DNA of 36,226 nucleotides. Origin: an uncultured marine group III euryarchaeote. Lineage in GTDB: Archaea; Thermoplasmatota; Poseidoniia; MGIII; CG-Epi1. The stretch lies in contig CACALG010000005.1 of assembly GCA_902533295.1 (NCBI GenBank), positions 1 through 36,226 of the forward strand. Direction: 5' to 3'. The notes below the pieces were generated by a model. It searched no databases. It was not told the origin of the DNA and saw only the letters and a list, made by a program, of their open reading frames with translations. Below are positions 3,001-25,757 of this stretch, one piece after another; positions within the stretch are counted from its first letter, which is position 1, and every line of letters begins with the position of its first letter. A program made the translations under genes and the position numbers.

Positions 3001-3936
3001 TTTCCATAATATACCATGTGAAGACTCATTATCAGCTGAAAAATACATATAATCATTGAAAACTGTAATATATTTTGGATTAGAAGGATAACCTTCACCG
3101 TTACCCATAGTTCCCGGCCGAAGATCTACGACTAGATTTGTACCATTCTCAGTACCATCTGTAGTCCAAAGCTCTGTACCATGTTCTTCATCTGTGGCTT
3201 GGAAGTAAAGTTTGTCATTGAATGCTGTAAAATATCGTGGCCAACTACTATCTTGAAAGCTGTCTCCAGGATAAATGTCCTTGAGTATGAACGTCCCGTT
3301 TTCAGTGCCGTCACTCTGCCACAATTCATAGCCGAGAGAGTTATTTCCATCAAAAGCGGTAAAGTAGAGGTGGTCTTCCCAAAGTGTTAAACCAGCAATA
3401 CCTGAACTTGTTGAACCTGGTCTAATATCTTTGACCATGTATGTGCCATTCTCAGTACCATCTGTTCTCCATAATTCTTGCCCGTGTTCATCAGTTCCAT
3501 CATCTAATGGAAAATACAAAACATCATTCCACCAAACATGACTCATCCCAGCTCCAAAGTTCGAACCAGGTAAATCTGCCTCACCTGGATTCAGATCCTT
3601 AAGCAAAGAAGTTCCAGTGAGGGTCCCATCTGACACATGTAATTCACGGCCCTTGTATTGACTTCCATAAGTACTATTAGCACTGTCTGCCATAAAAATC
3701 ATTATTTTCCCGTTCGTAATCGCATTTGTAGAAAGAGAGTTTGGTTGCAAAAGGTTAGTAAATGGAACTGAAATATTAGAAGGAGAAGTTCTAGCTCCAT
3801 CATACTCTGATAATTCTTCTAAAATTGAAGAATCTTCAACTACTACTGATGAGTAGGAATCTGTGTCTACTACGACAAGCGTTTGAGAAATAAAACTCAA
3901 TACGACAAGCAGAGAAATTACACGCCTTGAAAACAT
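1..3936 (-). CDS. Large secreted surface protein, 3'-partial at the left window edge: signal peptide, about 16 ELWxxDGTxxGTxxVKDI-type repeats, a putative Ig-like segment (LPAGLNFNPFTGRISGEPTE), then Asp-rich DxDxDGxxD (thrombospondin type 3-like) Ca-binding repeats
   Basis: Manual reverse translation from ATG at 3936 gives MFSRRVISLLVVLSFISQTLVVV..., then recurring ELWRTDGTENGTYMVKDIRPG, ELWQSDGTENGTFILKDIYPG and ELWTTDGTENGTNLVVDLRPG. The same frame (codons at positions 1 mod 3) was spot-checked open near 2250-2330, 660-720 and 1-60 (VIDLDSDNDGYPDT...; TVEISEGSDPLNFTSIPLDT). Not every codon was checked. Absent from the ORF track, presumably because it has no stop inside the window. Confidence 0.88.
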   Translation of the reverse strand, partial: MFSRRVISLLVVLSFISQTLVVVDTDSYSSVVVEDSSILEELSEYDGARTSPSNISVPFTNLLQPNSLSTNAITNGKIMIFMADSANSTYGSQYKGRELHVSDGTLTGTSLLKDLNPGEADLPGSNFGAGMSHVWWNDVLYFPLDDGTDEHGQELWRTDGTENGTYMVKDIRPGSTSSGIAGLTLWEDHLYFTAFDGNNSLGYELWQSDGTENGTFILKDIYPGDSFQDSSWPRYFTAFNDKLYFQATDEEHGTELWTTDGTENGTNLVVDLRPGTMGNGEGYPSNPKYITVFNDYMYFSADNESSHGILWKSDGTANGTSQVKNIWPDWNSNIQSIVPSSLETLAESSLDKFGIMGDHFYFTAKSSCSSSRCANLWKSDGTEEGTVAVTDFDEDSNGNGAQGIMHQRIGFVIGESKMVFVVDNETYGEELWISDGTTEGTHLLIDLNPEDDTNGNAAGSDIHGAVAGSGDIFYFGGRDGENCSHCEEHYNVLWKTDGTVEGTVKINQTYPKPDYPNPTDYVGWQNYPFFPFGNHLVFQGYTSCSGGGGSHHPGCQVGFWILHNISSGFSPTPSYTLYTEEEMDSITFEEGEARRYNGTGDVYQLDPIFPGSADDSSPQNMVVMGDIAYFTAQDEDHGRELWRSGGTNETTNLVKDICPGSTGSEIYHGLTVFNDLIIFSANDCTNGEELWISDGTENGTVMIKDMNEGGESSDSDPLGFLDAGDFAYFSGSDGSDRELWKTDGTTNGTVRVKDIVSDGSSNPGQLTLFGDTVFFTVGADISSELWKTDGTDEGTIQVSSSVSDIRELTVMGDALYFRGRSSGNDIELWKTDGTTAGTVRVKDINPGNSGSTPQALTVARGTLFFNANDGTHGEELWKSDGTEDGTVLVKDISSAGSSITEMVSIGNIVYFRATDGSIGHELWRSDGTEDGTYLVKDIAPGWESSHPQQMTPIGDRLFFTADDGDHGDEFWISDGTTNGTVMFEIGVGSTESCQCQQYNKVGNSILFVAASYYNNIELWSFDPTNIVFGGPDWAISPSLPAGLNFNPFTGRISGEPTEIMGWTEYNVSFNGTSYIMKIRVIDLDSDNDGYPDTIDDFPFDPTEWLDTDGDEIGNNADLDDDGDGYNDTVEIAEGSDPLDFDSIPVDTDGDLEPDSTDLDDDGDGYNDTDDAFPLDGTEWLDTDGDGIGNNADTDDDGDGLDDIDEDVNGNGTVDEGETDPLDPDTDNDGYCDGPVNVTINDVLICEVADRDGDGFADAFDAFPDDANEWLDTDGDEIGNNEDTDDDGDGYNDTVEISEGSDPLNFTSIPLDT

Positions 3937-8621: not shown

Positions 8622-11183
8622 TTGTCAAGTCCAGTGATGCGTCAGTACTACGCCATAAAACGTGAAAATCCAGATTCTATTCTCCTCTTTCGGATGGGGG
8701 ATTTTTACGAAACATTCGGTGATGATGCTGTAACTGTGGCAAAAGATCTGGATATTACATTAACAGCTAGAGATAAGAATTCTGACAATCCCATTCCTTT
8801 AGCTGGCGTACCATATCATGCACTAGATAGCTATCTTGGTAAATTAATCAAAAAAGGGCATCGAGTTGCAATTTGTGAGCAACTTGAAGATGCGAAAAGC
8901 TCCAAGGGAATCGTAAGAAGAGGAGTAACTCGAGTAGTAAGTCCTGGAACTGTAGTTGAAGGAACTATGCTAAGTAACTCCAATAATTTCTTAGCATCTA
9001 TAAATGAAACTGATGATGGACTGGGCTTAGCAATCATGGATATTTCAACTGGTGAATTTTCTACAGCCCAGTTCAGAGATAGAGAATCATTAGAATCTGA
9101 AATGATGAGATATGCTCCTTCAGAAGTAATCGTTCCTGAAGGAAATGAAAGTGTAGAAAATTGGATGAAGGCTATAGGTGTCAATATCACTCCCTGTAAG
9201 GCAGACTCGTGGATGTATCCTGTTTCCAAGAAAACTTTAGAAGAAAGATTTGGAAATGTTGAAGAATTGAAAACATACCCTATGGCTGTAACGGCTGCAG
9301 GTGCAATTCTCTCCTACGCAACTGATACTCAATTTAGTGATTTACCACACTTAAGACCGCCATCACTAATGGTTAAAGCCAAAACAATGACCTTAGATGC
9401 TGTAACTCTAAGAAATCTAGAGATTGTACGCACGATAAGCGATTCATCCAAAGATACTTTATTTGCAGTTCTAAACAAGAGCTCAACTGCAGGAGGTTCA
9501 CGAAGATTAAAGGACTGGTTACTTCGGCCATTGCATGATTTAGAAAGAATAAATGAAAGACATGATGCAGTAGAAGAATTATTCAAAAATACATTAAGTC
9601 GCAGAGAGATTAGAGATATTTTGAAAGGTTTCCAAGATGTTGAAAGATTACTGTCTAGACTGGGGCACGGTTCTATTTCTCCAAGAGATTTAGACAGTCT
9701 CAAAACGAGTCTAAGTACAGTAAAAGATCTAAAACAATTTCTAAGTGAAGAACCACTAAAATCAAAATTAATGAAGAAACTTGTAAAATCTATTGATGTG
9801 CACAAACAAGTTTCCAAAAAATTACAAGAGGCTATCGTAGAGGATCCGCCTCTTGTTCTTAGAGATGGTGGAATATTCAAGAAAGGATACTCAAAAGAAT
9901 TAGATGATTTAAGATCAAAAGCCACTAGTGGAAGAGAATGGGTTGCTTCATTAGAAGCTGAAGAAAAAGAAAAAACTGGTATTCCAAAGCTAAAAATTGG
10001 ATACAATCGTGTTTTTGGATATTATATTGAAGTTCCAAAAACATATGCAAAGAAGGTCCCAGAAAGTTATCATCGAAAACAAACTGTTGCAGCTGGTGAC
10101 CGATACATTACACCTGAATTAAAAGAGAAAGAGACTACTATTCTAAGAGCAGATGAGCGATCTCAAGCTCTTGAAGTTGAATTGTTCAAAGAATTGAGAG
10201 AATGGATTTTAGAATTCTTAGGATCTTTACAAGCAACTACTATGGCAATTTCCAGAATAGATGCAATTAGTTCACTCGCTGAAGTTAGTCAGACAAACAA
10301 TTATGTTAGACCTGAAATGTCCAATGATGGAACATTATCCATTTCTGACGGAAGACATCCTGTAATAGAAGTCCTTAGAGAAGGGCAATATATTCCTAAT
10401 AATTTACAGTTGGACAATAAACAAAGACAATTGATGATTCTAACTGGACCTAATATGGGTGGTAAATCTACCTACATGCGTCAGACTGCACTAATTTGTG
10501 TGATGGCTCAGGCGGGTTGTTTCGTTCCTGCTTCATCAGCAAGACTAGGAATGGTCGATCGTGTATTCACTCGCGTAGGTGCACACGATGACCTAGTACA
10601 TGGCCACTCAACCTTCATGGTGGAAATGCTAGAACTAGCAAACATTTTGAGAAATGCAACACCTAATAGTCTTGTACTACTAGATGAAATTGGAAGGGGA
10701 ACTTCGACTTTTGATGGTTTGGCATTAGCATGGGCAGTTTCAGAAGAATTGCATGCTGGTAAAGGTGTGAAAACGTTGTTTGCAACACATTACCACCAAT
10801 TGACTGATGTTGCAAAGATATTGGACCGATCAGTTAATTGTCATATGCAAGCTAAAGAAGATGGCCATGAATTAACACTACTACACCGAATTGCTGAAGG
10901 TCCAACAGACGCCTCATTTGGTATTCATGTAGCTAAAATGGCTGGTGTCCCTGAGGAAGTATTGGTAAGGGCCCGTAAAGTTTTGAACAATTTAGAAGAA
11001 GGTTCAACAATTGAAGTATCTAAAACTGGACCGGTTCAATCTGTTTTCAGCACTGATTTCGGTGCTAGAAGTCAAACTAAAGAGAATCCAATTGTAGATG
11101 AAATTAGAAAAATGGATTTGATGAATTTAACTCCTTTACAGGCACTAGAAAAATTACACGATATCCAACAGAAATTGCTCTAA
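8622..11183 (+). CDS. mutS: DNA mismatch repair protein MutS
   Basis: N-terminal LLFRMGDFYETFGDDA mismatch-recognition motif, Walker A TGPNMGGKSTYMRQ, LLDEIGRGTSTFDGLALAWA and ATHYHQL. TTG at 8622, or ATG at 8637. Confidence 0.97.
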   Translation: MSSPVMRQYYAIKRENPDSILLFRMGDFYETFGDDAVTVAKDLDITLTARDKNSDNPIPLAGVPYHALDSYLGKLIKKGHRVAICEQLEDAKSSKGIVRRGVTRVVSPGTVVEGTMLSNSNNFLASINETDDGLGLAIMDISTGEFSTAQFRDRESLESEMMRYAPSEVIVPEGNESVENWMKAIGVNITPCKADSWMYPVSKKTLEERFGNVEELKTYPMAVTAAGAILSYATDTQFSDLPHLRPPSLMVKAKTMTLDAVTLRNLEIVRTISDSSKDTLFAVLNKSSTAGGSRRLKDWLLRPLHDLERINERHDAVEELFKNTLSRREIRDILKGFQDVERLLSRLGHGSISPRDLDSLKTSLSTVKDLKQFLSEEPLKSKLMKKLVKSIDVHKQVSKKLQEAIVEDPPLVLRDGGIFKKGYSKELDDLRSKATSGREWVASLEAEEKEKTGIPKLKIGYNRVFGYYIEVPKTYAKKVPESYHRKQTVAAGDRYITPELKEKETTILRADERSQALEVELFKELREWILEFLGSLQATTMAISRIDAISSLAEVSQTNNYVRPEMSNDGTLSISDGRHPVIEVLREGQYIPNNLQLDNKQRQLMILTGPNMGGKSTYMRQTALICVMAQAGCFVPASSARLGMVDRVFTRVGAHDDLVHGHSTFMVEMLELANILRNATPNSLVLLDEIGRGTSTFDGLALAWAVSEELHAGKGVKTLFATHYHQLTDVAKILDRSVNCHMQAKEDGHELTLLHRIAEGPTDASFGIHVAKMAGVPEEVLVRARKVLNNLEEGSTIEVSKTGPVQSVFSTDFGARSQTKENPIVDEIRKMDLMNLTPLQALEKLHDIQQKLL

Positions 11184-11863
11184 CCTATACTAACGCTAAT
11201 CTTTTTTGAATTTGAATTGCCTTCAGGATCTTCTGCATATATCGTAAATGAATAGGAATCACTTTTGAGACCATTTTCAAAGTAATGATGATAGAAACTA
11301 CTGTCTGTTATATTGTATACATTATTATCTTCCATTTTAATCATAGGCTGAGAATTGAGACCTGCTGCTCCAGACGTAATAGTAACTGTTTCAACTTCCC
11401 AATTGTCTTTGACAGAAATTGCTAGAACAAAAGGTGTGTTTGCATCTATTTCTAGAGTTTCATTCCAAGAACCATCCATTTCGACATACAGTTCTACTTG
11501 CTGAAACTTAGGTTTAGCGATATCATTGAAAGGAGGATTTGATAGCAAAATCATAAATCCTAACCAAGCCATAAAAGACATGAACATTGGTCCAATCCAA
11601 TTCTTTCTCTCAAATTCGCTAGTATCAAAGAGTTGTGGAAGAACTTTGATTAGGCCAAAAGGAGCTACAAAACCAATAATTGTTGCCCAACTGCCAATAC
11701 CGGCCATTCTTACTAAAGAATAACAAATTACTGCAACGGCAAAAGCATAGAATACTGCAAAGAGAGTTACTTTAGAATCTCTAATCTCTTTAGTTCGATA
11801 TTCTTCTTTATTAAATTCAGGAAACTTGAAGGTTTCTTCACGCTTACCTTTTTTCTTGGCCAT
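11180..11863 (-). CDS. Conserved membrane protein, unknown function, with a C-terminal Ig-like/extracellular segment
   Basis: Several hydrophobic helices, then ETLEIDANTPFVLAISVKDNWEVETVTI...YAEDPEGNSNSKKISVSIG. Confidence 0.75.
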   Translation of the reverse strand: MAKKKGKREETFKFPEFNKEEYRTKEIRDSKVTLFAVFYAFAVAVICYSLVRMAGIGSWATIIGFVAPFGLIKVLPQLFDTSEFERKNWIGPMFMSFMAWLGFMILLSNPPFNDIAKPKFQQVELYVEMDGSWNETLEIDANTPFVLAISVKDNWEVETVTITSGAAGLNSQPMIKMEDNNVYNITDSSFYHHYFENGLKSDSYSFTIYAEDPEGNSNSKKISVSIG

Positions 11864-11923: not shown

Positions 11924-13996
11924 ATGGCAACAAAGGAGAAAGGGGCCGAAGCAGAGATTGCTGAGGAGGAAAAAGAAATATTACCTGAATTAACGGGTAT
12001 GCCTATTGAAGTGCATTTTCGTAGACATTTTCGGTTCATATTGTTTATACTTTTTTGTCTATACTTAGGTTGGTACACTTTTGCTTTGATGCTCATTGCT
12101 TGGGTTACAGGAGTTCGATGGGCAGAGAATCAAGGCCATTTACAAAAATACGATATGGATCTAGTATGGGGTCGCTCTTTCCTTATGTGGAGAACCGATT
12201 GGGGCAAAGGCTTCATAGAAAAAATATCACAAAACAAACCATTTTGGAGAAGAGTAGGAGATGTTTGGGTTGTAACTGTTTTTGTGATAATGATCCTAAT
12301 GTTTTCATTACTGCTTTGGCAAGCTACTTTAGCTTGGCAAATACCTAAAACTTCTGCAGTTTCTCCAAAGATGATGATTGGGTTGCCTGGTGTGAACCCT
12401 GTAATTCCTCTCTGGTATGGTATTTTAGCTCTAGTAATCGCAATGGTCGTTCACGAATTTAGTCACGGAATTTTAAGTCGTGTAGCAGATGTTAAAGTCA
12501 AAGCCTTAGGATTGTTACTTTTCATTTTCCCTGTTGGAGCTTTTGTTGAACCTGATGAAGAAGAAATGAAATCCATGAAAAAATGGGAAAGAATGAGACT
12601 CTATGCAGCAGGTCCTGGAAGCAATATGGTAATTGCTGTGATTTTCTCATTCCTATTTTCATCTGTAATGGTTGCTTCTCTAGAGCCTGCGGAAGATGGG
12701 TTGCTATTGTACTCTGTAAGTGCTGATTATGGAGGTGCAGAAGCGGGACTTGAACCTTGGATGCTTCTTACATCTATAGATGATGAAGAAATCAGAAATA
12801 TTGATGATTGGCAGAATATTATGAATAATACATATGCAGGTCAAAGCGTTAATGTTTCAGTTCTAAATGCAGGGGAACCTGAAACTTACTCCGTTACTTT
12901 GTCTGATAAAGGGAGTTATTATCTGAAATATTATCCTGATGCGTACGAACCTTGGATGTCTGGAAAGGGATTCATGGGTGTTGCTGCTGAAAATCCAAAA
13001 TTTGTAACTAATAACCTTGCAAATCCAACCGAAAATATTCTACTTTACATTTCTTTACCTTTTGCTAAGCTACAACCATTCCCGGATCATTTTACTTCAA
13101 TTTTCGAACCTAGCGGAATGGTGGGTGCAATACCTGACAATTTATTCTGGATTTTAGCTAATTGTTTCTATTGGATTTTCTGGCTTAATTTGATGGTTGG
13201 ATTGACAAATGCTCTTCCCTCAGTACCACTTGATGGAGGATTTATTTTTGCTGATGGCGTTACAGGAATTCTCGACAAAATCAAAACTGGTTTGACGGAA
13301 CAAAGAAAAGAAGAAATTGTCGATAATTTAGTTGCTGTTCTGGCTTTTACCGTCGTATTTTTAGTCGTCTGGCAACTAGTAGGGCCAAGAATCGTTGGTG
13401 TTGATCCTGTAATACTAGATGCAAACATAAATGCAAGTGAAACTAGTGGCTGGAATGGTGATGTTTTTAATTTTGATGCATCCATGTCTAATGGTGATTT
13501 CGTAACTTACGAATGGGATTTTGGTGACGGAACCACAATAACTGGGGAAAGTGTGGAGCATTCTTGGACAGAGGGTGGATTGTACTTTGTTGTATTGACA
13601 GCAAAAGATGCAGAAGATAGGCAAAGTGTTGCATTTGAACAAGTAAGTGTCAATCATTTTGCTGAAGGTGATGGAAGTGTAGGTGGAGGTTCTGATGATA
13701 ATGTAATTGCTACTGTTAATCCATACATAGAAAATGTAAGTATTTACATTAGTATAACGGGAGATAGTGGACTACCATTTGTGGAATCAGACGTCACTGT
13801 CACAATCAATAATCCCTCTGGAACTGTTTTTGAACAAGACTTACTTCTTAGTAATGGAGAAACACAAGAGCTCACTTTCGAAACAAGTGAGGGTGAAATG
13901 GTTGGCGATTGGGAAATTAGTCTAGAATCTAATGATCCTGCTTCTGATTTCACTTATGATTATGATTGGTTCAATTATTACCAAGATAGTTCCTAA
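11924..13996 (+). CDS. Site-2 protease (M50) family membrane metalloprotease with PDZ-like region and C-terminal PKD-like domain
   Basis: HExxH in VVHEFSHGILSR, second motif NALPSVPLDGG, and PKD-type NFDASMSNGDFVTYEWDFGDGTTITGESVEHSWTEGGLYFVVLTAKDAE. Confidence 0.93.
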   Translation: MATKEKGAEAEIAEEEKEILPELTGMPIEVHFRRHFRFILFILFCLYLGWYTFALMLIAWVTGVRWAENQGHLQKYDMDLVWGRSFLMWRTDWGKGFIEKISQNKPFWRRVGDVWVVTVFVIMILMFSLLLWQATLAWQIPKTSAVSPKMMIGLPGVNPVIPLWYGILALVIAMVVHEFSHGILSRVADVKVKALGLLLFIFPVGAFVEPDEEEMKSMKKWERMRLYAAGPGSNMVIAVIFSFLFSSVMVASLEPAEDGLLLYSVSADYGGAEAGLEPWMLLTSIDDEEIRNIDDWQNIMNNTYAGQSVNVSVLNAGEPETYSVTLSDKGSYYLKYYPDAYEPWMSGKGFMGVAAENPKFVTNNLANPTENILLYISLPFAKLQPFPDHFTSIFEPSGMVGAIPDNLFWILANCFYWIFWLNLMVGLTNALPSVPLDGGFIFADGVTGILDKIKTGLTEQRKEEIVDNLVAVLAFTVVFLVVWQLVGPRIVGVDPVILDANINASETSGWNGDVFNFDASMSNGDFVTYEWDFGDGTTITGESVEHSWTEGGLYFVVLTAKDAEDRQSVAFEQVSVNHFAEGDGSVGGGSDDNVIATVNPYIENVSIYISITGDSGLPFVESDVTVTINNPSGTVFEQDLLLSNGETQELTFETSEGEMVGDWEISLESNDPASDFTYDYDWFNYYQDSS

Positions 13997-14062: not shown

Positions 14063-15163
14063 GTGAAACAATTAATGAGTAAAGACCCTGTTCCACTAAA
14101 AGCAGTACACCACATTGAATTCTGGGTGGGTAATGCGAAGCAGGCTGCATATTTTTACAGAAAGGCATTTGGATTTGACCAAGTTGCATATTCTGGTTTA
14201 GAAACAGGAAACCGAGATCGTGCTAGCTATGTACTGGAACAAGGAAGAATTAGAATGGTTTTTTCAACTCCTTTAAACAGTAACAATGGAATTTCTGAAC
14301 ACATCAAAGCTCATGGTGATGGTGTAAAAGATATTGCATTTCACGTAGATGATGCAAAAGCATGTTATGAAGCATGCGTTGCACGTGGTGCTAAAAGTGC
14401 AAGGGAACCTGAAGTAGTTAGCGATGAAAACGGTAGCGTAACTAAGGCTGCAATTTTCACTTATGGAGAAACAATACACTCATTTATTTCTCATGATAGT
14501 TACGAAGGGCCTTTTCTACCTGGATTTATAGAAAGAAAAGTTGAAGGTGATAGTGTCGGATTAAGATTTATTGACCATGTTGTAGGAAATGTGGAACTAG
14601 GTAAGATGGAACATTGGGTTAATTTCTATGCAGATATAATGGGTTTTTCACAAATACAAGCATTTAGTGATGATGATATTTCAACCGAATATTCTGCCCT
14701 TATGTCCAAAGTTATGGAAAGTGATAATGGAAGAATTAAATTTCCAATTAATGAACCTGCTGAAGGAAGAAAAAAATCACAAATTGATGAATATTTAGAA
14801 TTCTATCAAGGCCCAGGTGTACAACACATTGCTCTTCTTACAGACGATATAATCAAGGCAATAAATCGATTGAAAGAAAATGGTGTGGAATTTCTAGAAG
14901 TTCCAGATACCTATTATGATGATTTAACAGAGAGAGTTGGAGCTATAGACGAAGATATTGAAGTCCTAAAAAAGCTAAAAATTCTAGTTGATCGAGATGA
15001 TGAAGGATATTTATTACAGTTATTTACAAAGCCTGTAGAAGACAGACCCACTGTTTTCTATGAGGTCATACAGAGAAAAGGTTCAAGAGGATTTGGAATT
15101 GGGAATTTCAAAGCATTGTTTGAAGCTATAGAAAGACATCAAGCTGAAAGAGGAAATTTATAA
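14063..15163 (+). CDS. hpd: 4-hydroxyphenylpyruvate dioxygenase
   Basis: [53 protein letters not shown]; second half [14 protein letters not shown] and C-terminal [36 protein letters not shown] are characteristic of HPPD. Confidence 0.97.
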
Positions 15164-16347
15164 TGCACAGATATCACAAACTAGGAAAAGTAGCTAAAAA
15201 AAGACATACTGTCTTTAGAGATGATAATGGAAAAATATACCATGAAGAATTGAAAGGAAACAAAGGTTTCGTAGGACCTTCTTCCCTTCTTTATCATATC
15301 TATCCACCAACTGAAGTCCTATCAACAAAATCTATTGGAAGTTTTGACATAGAAGAAGATGATGATAAATCTCTGAGAATGAGACATTTCTACTCTAATA
15401 GGGCAAAAAAAGGAGGAAGTGCAATAATGGATCGTACTCCTTTCCTTTTCAATGATGATGTTGTCATGATGATGGCTTATCCTGATAAGAATGATGATTA
15501 TTACTATAGAAATGCTCAGGGAGATGAAATTGTTTACGTTAGCCAAGGAAGTGGTGTTCTAGAGAGTGCTTTTGGAAATCTAAAATATTCGCAAGGTGAT
15601 TATCTTGTAATTCCAAGAGGAATTTTACATAAATATGTTATGAATGATGAAGAACATACACTTCTAATCGTTGAATCACCAAGTGAAGTAAGAACTCCAA
15701 GAAGATACAGAAATGAATATGGACAAATAATTGAAAGAAGCCCATACTCAGAAAGAGATTTTAGAGCTCCTGATGAACTAGTAACATATGATGAAAAAGG
15801 AGAATTCAAAGTTGTTGTTAAGCAAAGAAATCTGTTTACAGAAGTAACACTAGGCCACCACCCTTGTGATGTGGTTGGTTGGGATGGATTCTACTATCCT
15901 TATGCATTCAGTATTCATGATTTTGAACCAATCGTTGGTAGGATACATGAACCACCGCCCGTTCATCAAACATTTGCTGGAGATAGATTTGTTGTATGTT
16001 CATTCTGTCCAAGGCCATTTGATTTTGATGAAAATGCAATACCTGCACCATACAACCATTCAAATGTTATGTCTGACGAAGTGATTTATTATGATTCAAA
16101 AGAATTTATGTCTCGTAAAGGTGTTGAGTTTGGTTCAATGACGTTACATCCTGATGGATTAACACATGGCCCTCACCCTGGGAAATATGAAGGTTCCATA
16201 GGTGCAAAATGGACTGATGAATTGGCCGTCATGGTAGATACTCATTATCCTCTGAAAGTTGCCAAACCTGCACTAGGTGTTGAAGATCCGGATTACGCTA
16301 AATCCTGGTTAGACGGTGAAGGTTACAAAGAAGCACTAGGCGAATAA
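15163..16347 (+). CDS. hmgA: Homogentisate 1,2-dioxygenase
   Basis: HRYHKLGKVAKKRHTVFR...DEIVYVSQGSGVLESAFGNLKYSQGDYLVIPRGILHK...WDGFYYPYAFSIHDFEPIVGRIHEPPPVHQTF...SMTLHPDGLTHGPHPG. Overlaps the hpd stop in a TAATG. Confidence 0.96.
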   Translation: MHRYHKLGKVAKKRHTVFRDDNGKIYHEELKGNKGFVGPSSLLYHIYPPTEVLSTKSIGSFDIEEDDDKSLRMRHFYSNRAKKGGSAIMDRTPFLFNDDVVMMMAYPDKNDDYYYRNAQGDEIVYVSQGSGVLESAFGNLKYSQGDYLVIPRGILHKYVMNDEEHTLLIVESPSEVRTPRRYRNEYGQIIERSPYSERDFRAPDELVTYDEKGEFKVVVKQRNLFTEVTLGHHPCDVVGWDGFYYPYAFSIHDFEPIVGRIHEPPPVHQTFAGDRFVVCSFCPRPFDFDENAIPAPYNHSNVMSDEVIYYDSKEFMSRKGVEFGSMTLHPDGLTHGPHPGKYEGSIGAKWTDELAVMVDTHYPLKVAKPALGVEDPDYAKSWLDGEGYKEALGE

Positions 16348-16349
16348 AG

Positions 16350-17360
16350 TTGATGAAAGAAAGTCTTCGAACTTTCATGGATGGTCTGATTGATTACGCA
16401 GGTCTATTTCCTCCAGCTGATTTACCCTTGAATGAAGCCATAAACGAATATGTTACACAGGTAAAAAGTGATAATTCTCAAATGTTGAGTCGTTTCATAA
16501 TACATACTTCAAAATTGAATGAATTAGATGAATTTTTGCCTCTTTTCAAAGATATTGGGGCCCTGAAATTATCTGTTCTTGGTGGCGGCGGAAATAGTGA
16601 CGACGAGTATTTAAAGAAAATTGACCAAAATATTGCTGATATCCATGGTTATAGAGAAAAACATGGTGAAAAAATCGAAATTGACGTTATCGAATGTAAA
16701 ATGGCATCAAATTCGCCCTCAAAAAACACTATGGAGAAGGCCACCGATTCACTTAATAAAAATGGATTGACACATTATCACGAATTTGCTGAATTGCCAC
16801 CTGTTGGAATGAATTATTCAACCGAAATAGATGACAGTTCTTGGGATAAAGAAATTTTACCAACTGTAGAATTACTTTCCAAACTCGATAATGCAGGAAT
16901 AAAACTAAGATGTGGTGGAATAATCAAAGAAGCATTTCCCTCTGTAGAACAAGTAGCTGCTATGATACAAACTTGTGTTATTGTCGGTATTCCAATGAAA
17001 TTTACTGCTGGTTTACATCATCCAATACGCCATTTTGCAGACGAATATGATGAATATATGCATGGATTCATCAATACTTTTGGTGCTGGAGTCTTTGCAA
17101 CTACTTTCCCTAAGCCAAAAAATTCTCAAGAAAAGTATAAAATGTTTATTTTGTTATCCCATATGATTGATGATCAAAATGCCGAAAATTTTAGCTTTGC
17201 TAATGATTCTATGACTTGGAAAGTGGGAGATGACCGAGACACGCAATTCGAAATTGATGCGGAAACAATTGAAAACGCCCGCAGAAATGGTATGATTTCA
17301 TACGGCAGTTGCTCTTTTCAAGAGCCTATAGATGACTTAACACAATTAGGATGGATGTAA
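16350..17360 (+). CDS. Conserved protein of unknown function embedded in the homogentisate operon (possible enzyme)
   Basis: ORF in a tight operon between hmgA and fah; DYAGLFPPADLPLNEAI, IKLRCGGIIKEAFPSVEQVAAMI, IPMKFTAGLHHPIRH and SYGSCSFQEPIDDL look like conserved motif blocks. Confidence 0.85.
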   Translation: MMKESLRTFMDGLIDYAGLFPPADLPLNEAINEYVTQVKSDNSQMLSRFIIHTSKLNELDEFLPLFKDIGALKLSVLGGGGNSDDEYLKKIDQNIADIHGYREKHGEKIEIDVIECKMASNSPSKNTMEKATDSLNKNGLTHYHEFAELPPVGMNYSTEIDDSSWDKEILPTVELLSKLDNAGIKLRCGGIIKEAFPSVEQVAAMIQTCVIVGIPMKFTAGLHHPIRHFADEYDEYMHGFINTFGAGVFATTFPKPKNSQEKYKMFILLSHMIDDQNAENFSFANDSMTWKVGDDRDTQFEIDAETIENARRNGMISYGSCSFQEPIDDLTQLGWM

Positions 17361-18640
17361 TGGACGAAACACACGATTCAAAGTTAAAATCATGGGTAAA
17401 TGTTGCTGAAGATTCCGATTTCCCGATTCAAAACATTCCCTTTGGAGTGTATTCTCCAAAAGGTGGAGGAGACTTACATGTTGCTACAGCAATCGGAAAT
17501 TATGTTCTAGATTTGGCGTATTTAGATGAAGCAGGTTGTTTTGAAGGAACTGAAGTAGAAGGAACTGAAGTTTTCCATGAGCCTACTCTAAATGCCTTCA
17601 TGTCTTTAGGTCGTAAAGCTTGGAAAGAGGCTAGAAAAGTAATCAGTAATATTCTAAATGAAAATAATGATACACTAAGAGAGAATGATGAATTGAAGGA
17701 TTTGGCTTTGATCTCAATGGAAAATGCTGAAATGGAATTTCCCGTTGATATTGGAGATTATACAGATTTCTATTCTTCAAAAGAACACGCTTCTAATGTC
17801 GGCACTATTTTCAGGGGACCTGAGAATGCATTAATGCCTAATTGGTTACATTTACCTATTGCTTACCACGGCAGAGCGTCTTCGGTTATTCTAGATGGAG
17901 GAGATATTATACGTCCTAAAGGTCAAACAAAAACACCTGATGCTGCAGGACCTTCTTTCGGTGATAGTAAAAGAATGGATTTTGAACTTGAAATGGGATT
18001 GTTTATAGGTCCTGGAAATGGTTTAGGAGAACCTATCACTGTTAATGGTGCTGAAGAACATATCTTTGGTATGGCTCTTGTAAATGATTGGTCGGCTAGA
18101 GATATTCAAGCTTGGGAATATCAGCCACTGGGGCCTTTCTTAGCTAAGAATTTAGCCACTACAATTTCTCCTTGGATAATAACACTTGAAGCATTAGAGC
18201 CATTTAGATGTAGTGGGCCCAAACAAGACCCTGAACCTCTTGAATATTTGAGAAACAATAAGGATAGTACGTTTGATATTAACCTAGAAATTCATTTGAA
18301 AACTGAAAGGATGGATGCCTATGATTTGATTTCGTCAAGTAACTACAATTATCTCTACTGGGATATGAATCAACAAGTGGCACATCATACTACTACTGGT
18401 TGTAATCTGAGAACCGGAGACATGTTGGCTAGTGGAACTATTTCTGGGCCTGAGAAAAATAGTAGAGGGTCAATGCTCGAATTAACGTGGGGTTGGTCTG
18501 AACCAATTAAACTTTCAAATGGTGAAGAAAGAATTGCCCTTGAAGATGGAGATACTGTATTGTTGAAAGGCTGGTGTCAAGGTGAAGGATATCGGATTGG
18601 TTTTGGAAGCTGTACAGGCAAACTTCTACCCTCTGCTTAA
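17360..18640 (+). CDS. fahA: Fumarylacetoacetase
   Basis: FPIQNIPFGVYSPKGGGDLHVATAIGNYVLDL...DYTDFYSSKEHASNVGTIFRG...LPIAYHGRASSVI...VNDWSARDIQAWEYQPLGPFLAKN...GWCQGEGYRIGFGSCTGKLLP. ATG at 17360 overlaps the upstream TAA (TAATG); the ORF track start is 17351. Confidence 0.97.
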   Translation: MDETHDSKLKSWVNVAEDSDFPIQNIPFGVYSPKGGGDLHVATAIGNYVLDLAYLDEAGCFEGTEVEGTEVFHEPTLNAFMSLGRKAWKEARKVISNILNENNDTLRENDELKDLALISMENAEMEFPVDIGDYTDFYSSKEHASNVGTIFRGPENALMPNWLHLPIAYHGRASSVILDGGDIIRPKGQTKTPDAAGPSFGDSKRMDFELEMGLFIGPGNGLGEPITVNGAEEHIFGMALVNDWSARDIQAWEYQPLGPFLAKNLATTISPWIITLEALEPFRCSGPKQDPEPLEYLRNNKDSTFDINLEIHLKTERMDAYDLISSSNYNYLYWDMNQQVAHHTTTGCNLRTGDMLASGTISGPEKNSRGSMLELTWGWSEPIKLSNGEERIALEDGDTVLLKGWCQGEGYRIGFGSCTGKLLPSA

Positions 18641-18669: not shown

Positions 18670-18691
18670 CCATCCGAGTGGCGCCCAGTCC

Positions 18692-18710
18692 GTCTCCTGT
18701 TAGAGGAGAC
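18692..18710 (+). promoter_or_regulatory. Perfect 7-bp inverted repeat GTCTCCT-gttag-AGGAGAC, candidate 5'-leader hairpin of the STT3 mRNA
   Basis: Read directly; about 25-30 nt downstream of the TATA-like element and 18 nt before the ATG at 18729. Confidence 0.5.
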
Positions 18711-18728
18711 AGAAAGGACACAACATCA

Positions 18729-21700
18729 ATGGCAAGACAAACACGTCGAAGACGTGACTCCAAGTCAAAAAATCGCTATCGCCCTCGCTTCCCTTCAGCT
18801 TCAGGTAGAGCAAGTTCTGAACAAACTGAAATAGCGCCACGCAAAGTTGAAAAAATTGATTGGAGAACTGTTTTTATTTTGTTTGCAATTTTCCTTTTTT
18901 CCCTTTATATTAGAACTGCTTGGACGTTAGAACCAGCCACAGAGGATGGATTTCAACTTACTGGAGGTAGTGACCCTTACTACCACAAGCATGTTGTTGA
19001 CCACGTAGCTGAAACTGGTGAGCATTTGAAAAGAGATCCAATGCTTAACTATCCTTATGGAGCAAATAACAATCGACCACCTTTATTTGATTGGTCTATT
19101 GCAATTATTGGTTTAGCACTTTCACCATTCTTTAGTTCAACAGAGGAATCTGTATGGTGGGCAATGGAAGTTTTGCCTGCAATTTATGGAGCTTTAATCA
19201 TATTCCCAATTTACGCAATAGGTCGAGCTCAGTTTGGAAGGGAAGCTGGAATAATTGGAGCTTTCTTTATTGGTGTAAATTCACAACATGTAGGTCACTC
19301 AAGTTTGGCTCTGGCTGACCACGATTCTTACATTATTCTGTTTGGAACAACTGCTTATTTCTTCTTCATGAGGGCATTAACTGTTGCTAACGATAAGAAA
19401 TGGGTGTCTGATTGGACTAATTGGGATGAAATAAAGAGTGGTGTAAGACAATTTGTAGATTCTGAAAGATTAGCTCTTGGTTATGCTGGTTTAGCTGGTA
19501 TGACAATAACTATGATTTCAATGAGTTGGAAAGGTTTCCCATACATTATGGCAATCATTGCAATTTATTTGGGATTACAGATGTTAATCAATGCTTTCCG
19601 TAGAGTAGATAGTTTGACCACGGCCGCCCTAGGATTGGTTACACTTTCAATGCCTGTAATTTTGTCTTATCCTTATTACAACACCATGGGATTCGTGAAT
19701 ACATGGTGGGAAGCTCCTGCATATATTTTGCTAGGTTACTTCCTAATTTCATTACTAATGGTTACAACCAGAGATTTACCATGGTTATTAGTGATTGGTG
19801 TGTCTACTGGTATTGCAGTAATTATTTACTTGCTTCTTACTTATGTTTTTGAAGATCTTGGATTTTTACTCTTTAGTGGTCAAGGATACTTTGTCAGAAC
19901 AAAATTGTTCAATACAATTGCAGAAGCTCAGCCCCCTCAATTTGCTGATTTCGTTTTTGCTTTTGGTCCTGTCTCAATTTGGTTAGCTATATTCGGCGTT
20001 ATATGGATGGCTTACCAACTATTCAATCAGAGTATTTGGAAGAAAGATTATTTGTTCGTTATGATTTGGGCTCTTGTTTCAATTTACATGGCTCAATCAG
20101 CTATTCGTTTTATTTTTAATGCAACTCCTGTTGTATCACTTATCAGTGGATGGATAACTTGGTTGATAATCCAACAAGCCGATTTCCCTGCTATAATGGT
20201 AACTTGGAAAGCATTCTGGGGGAAGAGAGGTGGAACATTCTATTGGTTATCACTAGCATCGGTTTTTGCAGGATTATTCTTGTTCTTTACTGTAAGTATT
20301 CTAATTGGTCTTCTTTCAACTTTAATTCTCCTTCTATTGGTAATGGTTATTGGACATATGGATGCTCAAAGCGAGGACCAATATCGTTTCCGTGATAGGA
20401 TAAGAGGATTAAGACAAGGATTTGCTATGAAAAGGCCATTAATTGCTCTATTTGTTGGTCTATTCATCTTCCTACCAAATACTTTCTATGGATATGATGC
20501 TGGGGTTCCATTTGAAGATAAGAAAAGTCATGATTCAGAAATTTACGAATTTCTAAGTTATGATTTTTTAAGACCTGAAGAATATGATTGGGACGAACGA
20601 AATAATCAAACCAAATATCCAGATGGTGTCCAAGGAATGTATACTACCTCTGATAATTCTAATCAATTATGGTACTTGGGCAATACTGGGCCTTCATTCC
20701 CTCAAGACTATTGGATTGATGGATTGGAATGGTTAGCTGAACAAGACACAAATGAGAAACCTGAGGATCGGCCTGGCTTCATCTCTTGGTGGGATTACGG
20801 TTTCTGGGCAATCGATATTGGGGAACACCCTACTGTAGCTGATAACTTCCAGTTTGGATACCAAATTGCAGGTAATTTCATTGCTTCTCAATCCGAACAT
20901 GAAGCAATGGCTTTGTTACTCTATAGACTAATAGAACCTGAAGTCAATCGAGATTCAGAAAGTTTTAGTGATGAACTCAGAGCTGAATTATTATTATATT
21001 TATCAGAAGATAATGTTACAGAATTGGAAACAATAATCTCCAATCCTGACGATTATATTCCAAAGAAAGCAGATGGTAGTGATCAAGAGGTGCACCCGAA
21101 AAATGCTGCAATAAGAGCTGGAAGGCCAATTCTAATGACTATCGAGAAGAATGATATTGCAGACCTTATGTGGGAAGTGGAACAAATAACTGGTCACTCT
21201 ATCCGTTACTTTGCTGCAGATACAAGGCTAATGCCTTACTCTGCAAGTAATACTGGTATTTTGTACGCTCCAGTTACTTTGGCTGACTATGATATCAGTA
21301 ATTATGTAGAAGTTCAAGCTGCTTTATCAAACGGACAAACGGTACCATTTGATGAAGCAATAGAAATATTGAAAGCTAATCCAGATGTTCAAGTTTCTTC
21401 ACAGCAACTAGTTTACAAAGATAAATTTTTGAATTCAATGTTCTTTAGATCCTTCCTTGGATGGTCTGCAACAGATATTGGTAGACCAATAGAAGATGGA
21501 ATTCCTGGCGTATCTGGAACAATAGCCCAGGATCAAACACTACCTCCGCTACCTGGATGGAATTTAACTCACTTCAAATTGGTGCAATATAATTCCGGAC
21601 TCAGAATACTGAAATATTACGATGGTGCGACGGTTTATGGTACCGTTTCTACTCCTGAAGGAGACCCTGTTGTTAATGCAAACATAACTGTACTTGATGA

Positions 21701-24700
21701 ATATCGAGTTCCTCATGGAAGAGCAACAACTGATGAAAATGGACAATATAGTGTCTTGGTTCCTGCAGGAAATCTAACTCTGGCTGTTTCAATGGGAACT
21801 CCTGGAGAAGATATTGAAAAGATATTCATGACTTCGAACAATTTGCTAGTTAGAAAAGAAAATGTAATTATTTCTGAAGAACAAGCAATGAGAAAAACTA
21901 GTGGAGCAATAAAAATAGATCTTGAAGTCGAACCTGCGTCCGTGTCAGGTAGATTGTTCTGGGATAACAACAAAGATGAAACCTTTGATTCTGGTGATGA
22001 TACTGTACCTCTAATCCCAGTAACGGCAACAAATATACGCTCCGAAATTACTAGAACAGTTACAACTGATTCAAATGGTAATTATGAATTTACCGGATTG
22101 GCACCTGGTGAATACAAAATCACTGCTGAAATGGATGGGCACTCATTAGAATTAGCTTCATACACAGGTGAAGCATCATTACGAGCAAACCAAGACGTTA
22201 CTGTTAAAGGTGCTCTAAAACCAAGTTATATTTGGGGCAGAATTACCTCTGGAGATAATATCGGCTCACAAATCGTCACTATTTCACTTCACGATGAAAC
22301 TAACAGTAATATTACAGAAAATTCATTCCTTAACACCTATTATTACGTATCCGATTGTACTGGAGACGCCATAGATTCCTCAATATCATTCTGTTTTGAT
22401 AAACTATTACCTGGAAACTATACGCTTCGGTTTGAATCAAACGATATCTACACTGGTTGGACTAATAATACCAAAGAAGTAGAAATTGTAGCAGGACAAT
22501 CAAAAAGCTTCAACACCACTTTATTGAGCGGATTCCGATTAGAAGGTGTATTGAATCACAATAATCAACCTATTGCTAATGAGCAAATTGTTGTGAGGAA
22601 TGTGAATGAACAATATAGTGACAATGTATTCACCACAGATACTGGATACTTTGCGACCGTCCTTCCTAAAGGAATTTACGATATTTACACGGTTCACAAT
22701 ACTGAACAAACGACCCTAGCATATCTTAACCGAATAGATAGTCAAACTTATTCAGGAATAATAGATGCTAAGATGGGGCCTGGATACACAATACAAGGTA
22801 CTTTGTTTGAAGATTTAGATGGTGACAATGTATTCAATCCAGATACTGGAGAGAAAACATATAATGGAAAAATGGTTAGGTTTATCTCAGATAGTGGTAG
22901 TACTTCTGTAACTTCTACATTTGGAGGAAATTACGAAATTATTGTGCCTGAGGGGGCTTATAGTGTATATTCTCATGTTCTAGCAGATGGTCAACAAAAT
23001 TTGGTTTCTTTACGCAATCTTGGTATTGTTAACGGAAATCAAGAAAATGTTAATTTATCTGCAAATATAGGATACGATGCTTGGATTATTTTATATGAAG
23101 AACATATGGATGAAGTAATCAGCTTGGAAGGTTTAGTTGAATTGAGCACTGCCCAAGGTGAAATCGATGTTTGGGCAACTGATCCATTCTCTAAATTTAG
23201 TCTGCCTGGTGGAGAATACCAAATTGATTTGAATAAATTTGGATATGAATTAGAGAAAATTTATTACGGTCCTGAAGAAGAAAAGGAAGAAACGGAAAAG
23301 GTAACGTTAACAAAAACAGAAGAATTAATTTTACAAGCTAAAAGAATTCCAACAAATATAGATGGAAGATTTGTATATGAAGGAAGTCCGATACCTAATG
23401 CTCACTTATCTTTCTCACCAATGAATAATCCATTGTATCACTTAAATTTTACAACTGACGACCAAGGTAATTTCGAAAATGTAATTTTACCTCCTGATCA
23501 ATACATGTACACTTTCTCTCTTGAGGATAGTGGAAGTAGATATCTGAATCATGGACAAATGAATATTCCTATCGGAACGACTGAAGTAGACATGGGAGAT
23601 ATTGCTTCTGATCTTAAGTATCAAGTTTCTGGTGAAGTCACATTAAATGATGTAAAAACAACAGGTATGGTTATTCTAAGGCCTGTTGATGATTTTGATA
23701 ACTTTACTGTGCTCGAAACTACAGTGTTCGAAGATTATTCTGGCTATATGCTACCTGGTGAATATTACGTTACTTTCCAAGATGGACAATATGGTAAGCA
23801 CTACAGTTATGGTGGTTTCTTAGATTTGACAGGTCCTACAACTTATGATCTTGAATTGAAAAATGAAGGATATGTAAGAGGAGATGTAAGATCTCAAGCT
23901 GATAATAACATAATTACAGACAGACCGATTAGAATTCAATTTGTATCTGAAACTGGTGTTGTATTTGTAGAAGATTCTGATCCTGAAGAGGGGTTATTCG
24001 GAGCAACTATGAATTATGGTAAATTTGATTTGCCTAATGGTAATTACGACGTGATTGTAAAAGAAAATGGATATCAAGATTTTGCAAGCACGATTACAAT
24101 TGATGGATCTACGGACTATTACAATGAAATTGTATTAATTCCTAAGACTGTGAATGTTACTTTGGAAATGACTTATGTTAATGCAACTGGAAATAGTGTT
24201 CCTTTAGCTAATGGATTAGTTACTTTTGAAGCTGTTACTGGTGAAACATTCGGCCATTATACTGATGAAAATGGAGTAATTAACATTCCTGATATGGTTC
24301 CAAAAACCTATGAAATAGAAATGGATGTTACTCTAAATGATGGTGCTGATGAATTCACAATGAGTAAGAGAAATATCTATGTAAGTGCTGGTAATGAACA
24401 ACAAACATTCAAGAAAGAGGCTGAATGGAAAGTTCGAGTATCTGGTACTATCTTCTATGACCGTGATTTTGATGGAACTCCTGATTCTAATGAATTGCTT
24501 GCAAATTCGCAAGTGGATATTTGGAATGTGGATGGTACACAAATTAGAGAAAGCACAACTGCGGATTCAAATGGAAATTACGAAGTTTATTTGGATACTG
24601 GAGTGTACAAGACATGGTTCTACACTACAGAAGGAACAAGTTACACTTCCATAGATTCACTTGAACTAGAGGGAGCTCTAGAATTAAGTCCTGCACTATC

Positions 24701-25757
24701 GCGTGGTGTTAACTACATTGTAGACTATCAATCATCAGAAACAAACTCCAATATTGATTTTGGTGATGTAGATATTGTAGGAACTAATGTTAGCTTCACA
24801 ATCGAAGCTGATAATGGGAACATGGAAATTTTGGTTCCAAATGGCGTCTATGAATTCAAAGGAAATTATGAAGATTTATCTGCAACTGAGGATTACGCTT
24901 ATGTATTAGATATATCAGTTAACATAACTGACGATATTGACGGTGTAGTTCAGGTAGAAAGTATTGATAAGCAATTAATGAGAGGGTTTGACGTTTCATT
25001 AGATACAAACGAGTTAGAAATACCTATTAGTCAAACAGCTATTTTCAATTTCAATGTTACATCATCTGGTTTCTTAGACATTGTTTTTGAAACAGGAATA
25101 GAAGAGATTCCTGAAGGATGGAGTGCCGAATTTGTACCAAATAAATTGAACATGAAAGAAGGCGAAGAAGATAATCTCCAACTGAAGATAACGCCTAATG
25201 AAAATGTAGTTCCTGGTGTTTGGGAAGTATTCTATGTCGAAATCTTCTGGACAGACTACGAAGATAATCAAATCGATGATTTAAGACGTAATTTTGCTGT
25301 AACTGTTGAACCTATTGAACAACCTGATCCTGACTTCACAATAGAAACTGGTGATTTTGTTTGGAATCCTGATGCACCTACTGTTGGAACTGAAGTGACA
25401 TTAAGTGCAACTGTGACGAACGCAGTTAATCACTCAGGTGCCCATTATGTTCCTGTTGTCTTTTATGTCGATGATGAACCAATAAAGATGATTACTGCTG
25501 AGTTTGATGGAAATAACAGTGAAGTCACTGTTAGTGCCACTTGGAATGCTACAAAGGGTACACACACACTTAAGGCACATATAGACCCTGAGAACGCCAT
25601 AGAAGAGACTAATAGCGATAATAACAAGGCATCAACTACTTTCTCAATAAGTGAATCTGAGGAAGAAGATAACAGTTCTACTATGAACATGATTGCTATA
25701 GCTGTAGTAGCTCTCGTAGCTGGTTTTGCATACGTAAGTTATCGTTCTAGGCGTTAG
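18729..25757 (+). CDS. aglB: STT3/AglB oligosaccharyltransferase with very long C-terminal extension of CarboxypepD_reg/SdrD B-like repeats, CARDB-like domain and C-terminal TM anchor
   Basis: STT3 signatures GGSDPYYHKHVVD, ALADHDSYIILFGTTAYF and WWDYGFW; then ~1375 aa with repeats such as GRLFWDNNKDETFDSGDD...TTDSNGNYEFTGLAPGEYKITAEM; CARDB-like DPDFTIETGDFVWNPDAPTVGTEVTLSATVTN...AIEETNSDNNKASTTF; terminal TM NMIAIAVVALVAGFAYVSYRSRR. Start set to ATG 18729 because the ORF-track GTG (18678) lies upstream of the predicted TSS. Confidence 0.92.
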   Translation: MARQTRRRRDSKSKNRYRPRFPSASGRASSEQTEIAPRKVEKIDWRTVFILFAIFLFSLYIRTAWTLEPATEDGFQLTGGSDPYYHKHVVDHVAETGEHLKRDPMLNYPYGANNNRPPLFDWSIAIIGLALSPFFSSTEESVWWAMEVLPAIYGALIIFPIYAIGRAQFGREAGIIGAFFIGVNSQHVGHSSLALADHDSYIILFGTTAYFFFMRALTVANDKKWVSDWTNWDEIKSGVRQFVDSERLALGYAGLAGMTITMISMSWKGFPYIMAIIAIYLGLQMLINAFRRVDSLTTAALGLVTLSMPVILSYPYYNTMGFVNTWWEAPAYILLGYFLISLLMVTTRDLPWLLVIGVSTGIAVIIYLLLTYVFEDLGFLLFSGQGYFVRTKLFNTIAEAQPPQFADFVFAFGPVSIWLAIFGVIWMAYQLFNQSIWKKDYLFVMIWALVSIYMAQSAIRFIFNATPVVSLISGWITWLIIQQADFPAIMVTWKAFWGKRGGTFYWLSLASVFAGLFLFFTVSILIGLLSTLILLLLVMVIGHMDAQSEDQYRFRDRIRGLRQGFAMKRPLIALFVGLFIFLPNTFYGYDAGVPFEDKKSHDSEIYEFLSYDFLRPEEYDWDERNNQTKYPDGVQGMYTTSDNSNQLWYLGNTGPSFPQDYWIDGLEWLAEQDTNEKPEDRPGFISWWDYGFWAIDIGEHPTVADNFQFGYQIAGNFIASQSEHEAMALLLYRLIEPEVNRDSESFSDELRAELLLYLSEDNVTELETIISNPDDYIPKKADGSDQEVHPKNAAIRAGRPILMTIEKNDIADLMWEVEQITGHSIRYFAADTRLMPYSASNTGILYAPVTLADYDISNYVEVQAALSNGQTVPFDEAIEILKANPDVQVSSQQLVYKDKFLNSMFFRSFLGWSATDIGRPIEDGIPGVSGTIAQDQTLPPLPGWNLTHFKLVQYNSGLRILKYYDGATVYGTVSTPEGDPVVNANITVLDEYRVPHGRATTDENGQYSVLVPAGNLTLAVSMGTPGEDIEKIFMTSNNLLVRKENVIISEEQAMRKTSGAIKIDLEVEPASVSGRLFWDNNKDETFDSGDDTVPLIPVTATNIRSEITRTVTTDSNGNYEFTGLAPGEYKITAEMDGHSLELASYTGEASLRANQDVTVKGALKPSYIWGRITSGDNIGSQIVTISLHDETNSNITENSFLNTYYYVSDCTGDAIDSSISFCFDKLLPGNYTLRFESNDIYTGWTNNTKEVEIVAGQSKSFNTTLLSGFRLEGVLNHNNQPIANEQIVVRNVNEQYSDNVFTTDTGYFATVLPKGIYDIYTVHNTEQTTLAYLNRIDSQTYSGIIDAKMGPGYTIQGTLFEDLDGDNVFNPDTGEKTYNGKMVRFISDSGSTSVTSTFGGNYEIIVPEGAYSVYSHVLADGQQNLVSLRNLGIVNGNQENVNLSANIGYDAWIILYEEHMDEVISLEGLVELSTAQGEIDVWATDPFSKFSLPGGEYQIDLNKFGYELEKIYYGPEEEKEETEKVTLTKTEELILQAKRIPTNIDGRFVYEGSPIPNAHLSFSPMNNPLYHLNFTTDDQGNFENVILPPDQYMYTFSLEDSGSRYLNHGQMNIPIGTTEVDMGDIASDLKYQVSGEVTLNDVKTTGMVILRPVDDFDNFTVLETTVFEDYSGYMLPGEYYVTFQDGQYGKHYSYGGFLDLTGPTTYDLELKNEGYVRGDVRSQADNNIITDRPIRIQFVSETGVVFVEDSDPEEGLFGATMNYGKFDLPNGNYDVIVKENGYQDFASTITIDGSTDYYNEIVLIPKTVNVTLEMTYVNATGNSVPLANGLVTFEAVTGETFGHYTDENGVINIPDMVPKTYEIEMDVTLNDGADEFTMSKRNIYVSAGNEQQTFKKEAEWKVRVSGTIFYDRDFDGTPDSNELLANSQVDIWNVDGTQIRESTTADSNGNYEVYLDTGVYKTWFYTTEGTSYTSIDSLELEGALELSPALSRGVNYIVDYQSSETNSNIDFGDVDIVGTNVSFTIEADNGNMEILVPNGVYEFKGNYEDLSATEDYAYVLDISVNITDDIDGVVQVESIDKQLMRGFDVSLDTNELEIPISQTAIFNFNVTSSGFLDIVFETGIEEIPEGWSAEFVPNKLNMKEGEEDNLQLKITPNENVVPGVWEVFYVEIFWTDYEDNQIDDLRRNFAVTVEPIEQPDPDFTIETGDFVWNPDAPTVGTEVTLSATVTNAVNHSGAHYVPVVFYVDDEPIKMITAEFDGNNSEVTVSATWNATKGTHTLKAHIDPENAIEETNSDNNKASTTFSISESEEEDNSSTMNMIAIAVVALVAGFAYVSYRSRR

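Follow-up and report, generated by a model that had tools for sequence, protein, structure and literature searches.

A candidate GST-unrelated maleylacetoacetate isomerase encoded beside fumarylacetoacetase in Marine Group III archaea and in bacteria

The operon and the absence of the usual isomerases

Analysis of the window, a 36,226-nucleotide stretch of DNA from a Marine Group III (MGIII) archaeal MAG, revealed four genes in the order HPPD-HGD-X-FAH, all on the + strand, where X denotes the third gene and its product:

14063..15163, + strand: HPPD, 4-hydroxyphenylpyruvate dioxygenase (TIGR01263, 467 bits against a cut-off of 277)
15163..16347, + strand: HGD, divergent homogentisate 1,2-dioxygenase (Pfam HgmA_N and HgmA_C above the gathering score)
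16353..17360, + strand: X, candidate GST-unrelated maleylacetoacetate isomerase (no family match; homologues beside fahA in five phyla)
17360..18640 (alternative start 17351), + strand: FAH, fumarylacetoacetase (TIGR01266, 603 bits against a cut-off of 375)

Open reading frames, profile matches and junction sequences bore out the gene order given in the first-pass annotation, together with its TAATG stop/start overlaps at HPPD/HGD and X/FAH; the junction sequence leaves a gap of 2-5 nt between HGD and X. The length of 336 aa that had been given for X holds if translation starts at TTG 16350, but ATG 16353, which yields 335 aa, is the more plausible start. HPPD and FAH exceed their NCBIfam equivalog cut-offs. 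In contrast, HGD scores 72 bits against the cut-off of 511 for the hmgA equivalog TIGR01015 despite matching both Pfam HgmA domains, indicating that it is a divergent member. Upstream of the operon lie two divergently oriented genes, for an EMC6_arch family membrane protein (11180-11863) and for a Site-2 (M50) protease that carries PDZ and PKD domains (11924-13996). Downstream, positions 18678-25757 encode a 2359-aa STT3/AglB-like oligosaccharyltransferase whose C terminus is greatly extended by CarboxypepD_reg, SdrD_B-like, PEGA and CARDB repeats.

HGD produces maleylacetoacetate, FAH requires fumarylacetoacetate, and the isomerisation between them is carried out by MaiA using glutathione (PMC10950700). 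The earlier remark that no GST-like gene is visible in the window could be extended from the window to the genome that contains it, which is 65% complete and has no MaiA-family match, and to 20 other genomes of its family, giving 0/21 MGIII-family genomes with MaiA. Incompleteness of a single MAG does not fully account for the missing MaiA, since two X-bearing sister genomes in this family reach 92% and 97% completeness. The MaiA family was also missing from all 346 Bacteroidota genomes and from every X-bearing genome tested whole, and MaiA had no match in three X-bearing bacterial plasmids (Priestia, Streptomyces and Rhodococcus); a Kovacikia plasmid carries GST-like genes, all of which score under the MaiA cut-off. 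As for MDMPI-type isomerases, which the first-pass annotation had named alongside MaiA, the MDMPI_N domain was found in 0/39 archaeal relatives.

Distribution of X and its linkage to fahA

The closest relatives of the window are MGIII/Poseidoniia MAGs. X is present in 17 of the 39 relatives, all from one family. FAH is present in 18, including one genome with just a fragment at a contig end. Full-length FAH is confined to five of 246 Thermoplasmatota genomes, each of which has X. The MGIII sequences fall at three positions in the X tree, and this weakly supported placement suggests several transfers. An apparent bacterial relative with an X 62% identical to that of the window (NHFW02000028.1, "Flavobacteriaceae bacterium TMED121") was rejected as such: it carries the archaeal HPPD-HGD-X-FAH operon, its X branches within the MGIII clade, and X is absent from 60/60 other members of its nominal family, indicating that it is likely a misbinned archaeal contig.

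With the genome bin of this contig left out, the Bacteroidota set comprised 346 genomes, of which 345 were counted for FAH. X matched in 51 of the 346, comprising 43 genomes with an intact X, seven with degenerate copies only and one with a broken copy. FAH exceeded the cut-off in 128/345 genomes overall, and a full-length FAH was found in 43/43 genomes with intact X (hypergeometric P 1.6e-21, with kinship ignored); these co-occurrence counts come from an even genome sample and are uncorrected for phylogeny. The genes are also physically linked: 36 of the 43 intact X genes lie immediately upstream of fahA in the same orientation (35 from fetched loci and one, in G246, by coordinates), and of the rest five lie one gene away from fahA, one adjoins HPPD-HGD and one (in G168) stands alone. 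HGD is often not within 5 kb of these X-fahA pairs. Approximately 85 of the 128 FAH-bearing Bacteroidota have neither intact X nor MaiA, making X one of several solutions; isomerisation in these genomes may be served otherwise, or may need no enzyme.

Bacterial phyla apart from Bacteroidota were sampled through plasmids only. A tblastn search of plasmid records returned 24 convincing X records, from Streptomyces, Priestia, Rhodococcus, Pseudonocardia, Nonomuraea, Tsukamurella and the cyanobacterium Kovacikia. In all nine plasmid loci inspected X directly precedes fahA, mostly after HGD or HPPD, and wherever it is annotated there it is a 'hypothetical protein'. Over the whole analysis the order HGD-X-FAH or X-FAH is found in Thermoplasmatota, Bacillota, Actinomycetota, Cyanobacteriota and Bacteroidota. 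Several X operons also hold the standard genes for handling acetoacetate (CoA transferase, AACS-like synthetase). On proteobacterial plasmids it is MaiA that adjoins FAH, in two opened loci and in several more by coordinates. One Streptomyces plasmid (sp. NBC_00525) has a gene with an MDMPI_N (maleylpyruvate isomerase) domain, at 2985-3641 of locus L030, about 4 kb upstream of X-fahA. The first-pass annotation had stated that its proposal would be refuted if X co-occurred freely with MaiA or lay mostly outside tyrosine-catabolism loci. Neither pattern emerged, as X tracks FAH, with MaiA at 0/21 and 0/346 in the MGIII family and Bacteroidota, and lies overwhelmingly beside fahA/hmgA.

No substitute gene is common to all FAH loci that lack X, and the only recurrent candidate, found in some of them, is a flavin-reductase-like protein (PF01613) of about 300 aa. 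It abuts fahA in 13 of the 28 examined loci without X beside FAH (the Bacteroidota loci being L174-L180, L154, L157, L159, L160, L165 and L054) and in 0/40 loci showing X and FAH together. This exclusion has a Fisher p of 8e-7, calculated for 0/42 against 13/28 with slightly different denominators and kinship ignored. Although unrelated to X by family, the PF01613 protein takes the same fahA-adjacent place, suggesting that it may do the same job as an independent solution to the isomerisation step, which we regard as a lead and not a result.

Predicted fold, conserved residues and degenerate copies

Searches for a known family gave no match for X in Pfam or among PDB sequences and no meaningful match in NCBIfam, and the X family profile and 15 diverse homologues were equally without match in the family and PDB sequence searches. 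X does not match the MaiA/GST zeta profile TIGR01262, and the fold predicted for it is that of a barrel and not of a GST; neither X nor any of the 15 homologues has a Pfam match to an MDMPI_N or DinB domain. A scan of viral contigs found no X relatives. The literature searched, mostly outside subscription journals so that an earlier description is possible, held no account of X or of a glutathione-independent maleylacetoacetate isomerase. A fusion of X suggested by an 810-aa frame in one genome (G332) was dropped because the extra frame appears non-coding.

The suggestion in the first-pass annotation that X is a barrel-type enzyme agrees with its AlphaFold model, which was built from 11 close sequences and shows strands and helices alternating as in a (beta/alpha)8 barrel (pLDDT 77, pTM 0.83). 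In a Foldseek comparison of this model with the PDB, DERA-type class I aldolases dominated the matches (E 6e-5 to 1e-3, TM 0.45-0.48), with an rmsd of 7-9 A and approximately 8% identity; for a second, poorer model (pLDDT 68), DERA was still among mixed barrel matches, more weakly. The prediction for X is a TIM barrel whose nearest structural neighbours, at a loose level of similarity, are class I aldolases of the DERA type. Profile comparison gave no significant sequence homology between the two (hhalign probability 2%), so a reading of X as a DERA homologue by sequence was rejected and membership of that family is not claimed.

The residues conserved in X lie on strands or strand ends of the AlphaFold model. 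An alignment of 67 FAH-linked or otherwise intact X proteins with eight degenerate Bacteroidota copies showed that the three motif blocks quoted in the first-pass annotation are indeed conserved and contain the most conserved residues of the family, which in the window are encoded as follows:

16902..16913, + strand: codons of Lys185-Leu-Arg187-Cys (K-x-R-[CT]-G-G motif, predicted strand 6; alignment conservation)
16998..17018, + strand: codons of Lys217 to His223 (K-x-T-A-G-L-H motif, predicted strand 7 and next loop; alignment conservation)
17310..17312, + strand: codon of Cys321, candidate nucleophile (G-[ST]-C-S motif, end of predicted strand 8; alignment conservation)

Invariant in 67/67 are D15, A17, P21, P22, E115, K185, R187, G189, G190, P197, K217, T219, A220, G221, L222, H223, G239, N242, G319, C321, S322 and P326. 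In DERA a Schiff-base lysine lies on strand 6 and a helper lysine on strand 7. K185 and K217 of X fall on predicted strands 6 and 7, K185 being within predicted strand 182-188, and may correspond to these lysines; the nearest solved structures in the Foldseek comparison of the better model are those of DERA. The K185-K217 spacing is 32 in 66/66 X proteins and 35-36 in DERA, a similarity judged by predicted strand. X differs from DERA in adding R187, H223 and C321 and in its place in tyrosine-catabolism operons.

The degenerate copies separate these residues into two sets. All eight retain K185 and K217, as well as E115, G239 and N242, whereas R187, H223 and C321, invariant in the 67 FAH-linked or intact proteins, are retained in 0/8. 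In the tree all eight branch from within the FAH-linked clade, and seven of the eight occupy a slot, marked by hemW-like and HU-like genes, that is shared with the intact X of relatives (L135-L141 compared with L107, L110, L111, L113 and L116). Six genomes with degenerate X have FAH, in each case in a separate HGD-FAH operon with a flavin-reductase-like gene, and in G168 the old slot is still occupied by an intact X while the new operon is also present, as expected of an intermediate. The degenerate copies are possibly decaying or repurposed. The loss of R187, H223 and C321 in genomes whose FAH has relocated to a different operon ties these three residues to the job of X beside FAH.

Proposed function of X

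The location of X beside FAH across phyla, together with the failure to find the usual glutathione-dependent isomerase, suggests that X is probably an unrecognised replacement of that enzyme: a non-GST, glutathione-independent maleylacetoacetate isomerase that supplies the step from HGD to FAH where MaiA is missing. We assign this step from gene context and the residue roles from conservation and predicted position, and we infer the reaction and its independence of glutathione. MaiA shares with X the proposed step and the neighbourhood of fahA but has a thioredoxin/GST fold and a need for glutathione, whereas X is a predicted barrel with no sequence match to it. The mycothiol-dependent maleylpyruvate isomerase MDMPI is a known non-GST enzyme that catalyses a very similar cis-trans conversion in glutathione-free organisms; it has a DinB helical-bundle fold, however, and Pfam scans detected no sequence relation to X.

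One possible mechanism would begin with binding of the dicarboxylate 4-maleylacetoacetate in a basic pocket of the barrel formed by Lys185, Arg187, Lys217, His223 and Arg227. Lys185, whose predicted position resembles that of the Schiff-base lysine in DERA-type enzymes, would form an iminium with the keto group and so polarise it, assisted by Lys217. Cys321, taking the part that the glutathione thiol plays in MaiA, would add to the C=C bond. Rotation about the C2-C3 bond and elimination would then free fumarylacetoacetate for FAH. It is conceivable, though doubtful, that X founds a new barrel isomerase family with such dual covalent catalysis, by lysine iminium and internal cysteine Michael nucleophile, and that the PF01613 protein is a further independent solution in other Bacteroidota.

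Three other readings of the same data were considered. An accessory role, with X a non-catalytic partner of FAH or HGD in assembly, stability or metabolite sensing while isomerisation is non-enzymatic or due to an unlinked enzyme, would fit the many FAH genomes without X and MaiA, the MDMPI_N-type gene near one Streptomyces X and the glutathione-dependent non-enzymatic bypass in mice, as described in a title cited in PMC11457941. We nevertheless consider it unlikely, because Lys, Arg, His, Cys and Asp residues conserved in 67/67 proteins on or near barrel strands are typical of an active site and not of a scaffold. The tightest linkage of X is to fahA, often with no HGD within 5 kb in Bacteroidota, so that X could instead serve a step later than FAH, using Schiff-base chemistry like that of class I aldolases on acetoacetate or on a different beta-keto acid that derives from the FAH reaction. 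The predicted barrel is nearest to lysine-dependent aldolases and its two lysines are invariant, and an aldolase-like fold could equally well point to C-C chemistry. This role is quite improbable, however, given that several X operons already contain a CoA transferase and an AACS-like synthetase, that it would leave the MaiA-less archaea with no candidate for maleylacetoacetate isomerisation and that the residues lost in degenerate copies are not the lysines.

The remaining alternative concerns the thiol. X-bearing lineages use differing thiols or have no glutathione, so X might be an isomerase that draws on mycothiol, bacillithiol, CoA or a similar low-molecular-weight thiol in place of its own cysteine, much as MaiA itself uses glutathione (PMC10950700). 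Such dependence seems very unlikely for one family that spans lineages with differing thiols and whose invariant cysteine could act as an internal nucleophile.

If the assignment of X as a glutathione-independent maleylacetoacetate isomerase is correct, X would close a gap in tyrosine/phenylalanine breakdown in various MaiA-less organisms, add a glutathione-independent route to a classical reaction and give a name to a family that is now a 'hypothetical protein' in the bacterial records inspected. The X copies that coexist with FAH in another operon would then amount to a natural experiment, in which the residues lost should be catalytic.

A sixth X-bearing Thermoplasmatota genome (G507), from another family than the MGIII genomes, places X directly downstream of a different FAA-hydrolase-family gene. 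At this locus (L173) X is divergent and may act on a related substrate, and the neighbouring FAA hydrolase has an N-terminal domain of type 2 (PF18288) and is not a fumarylacetoacetase.
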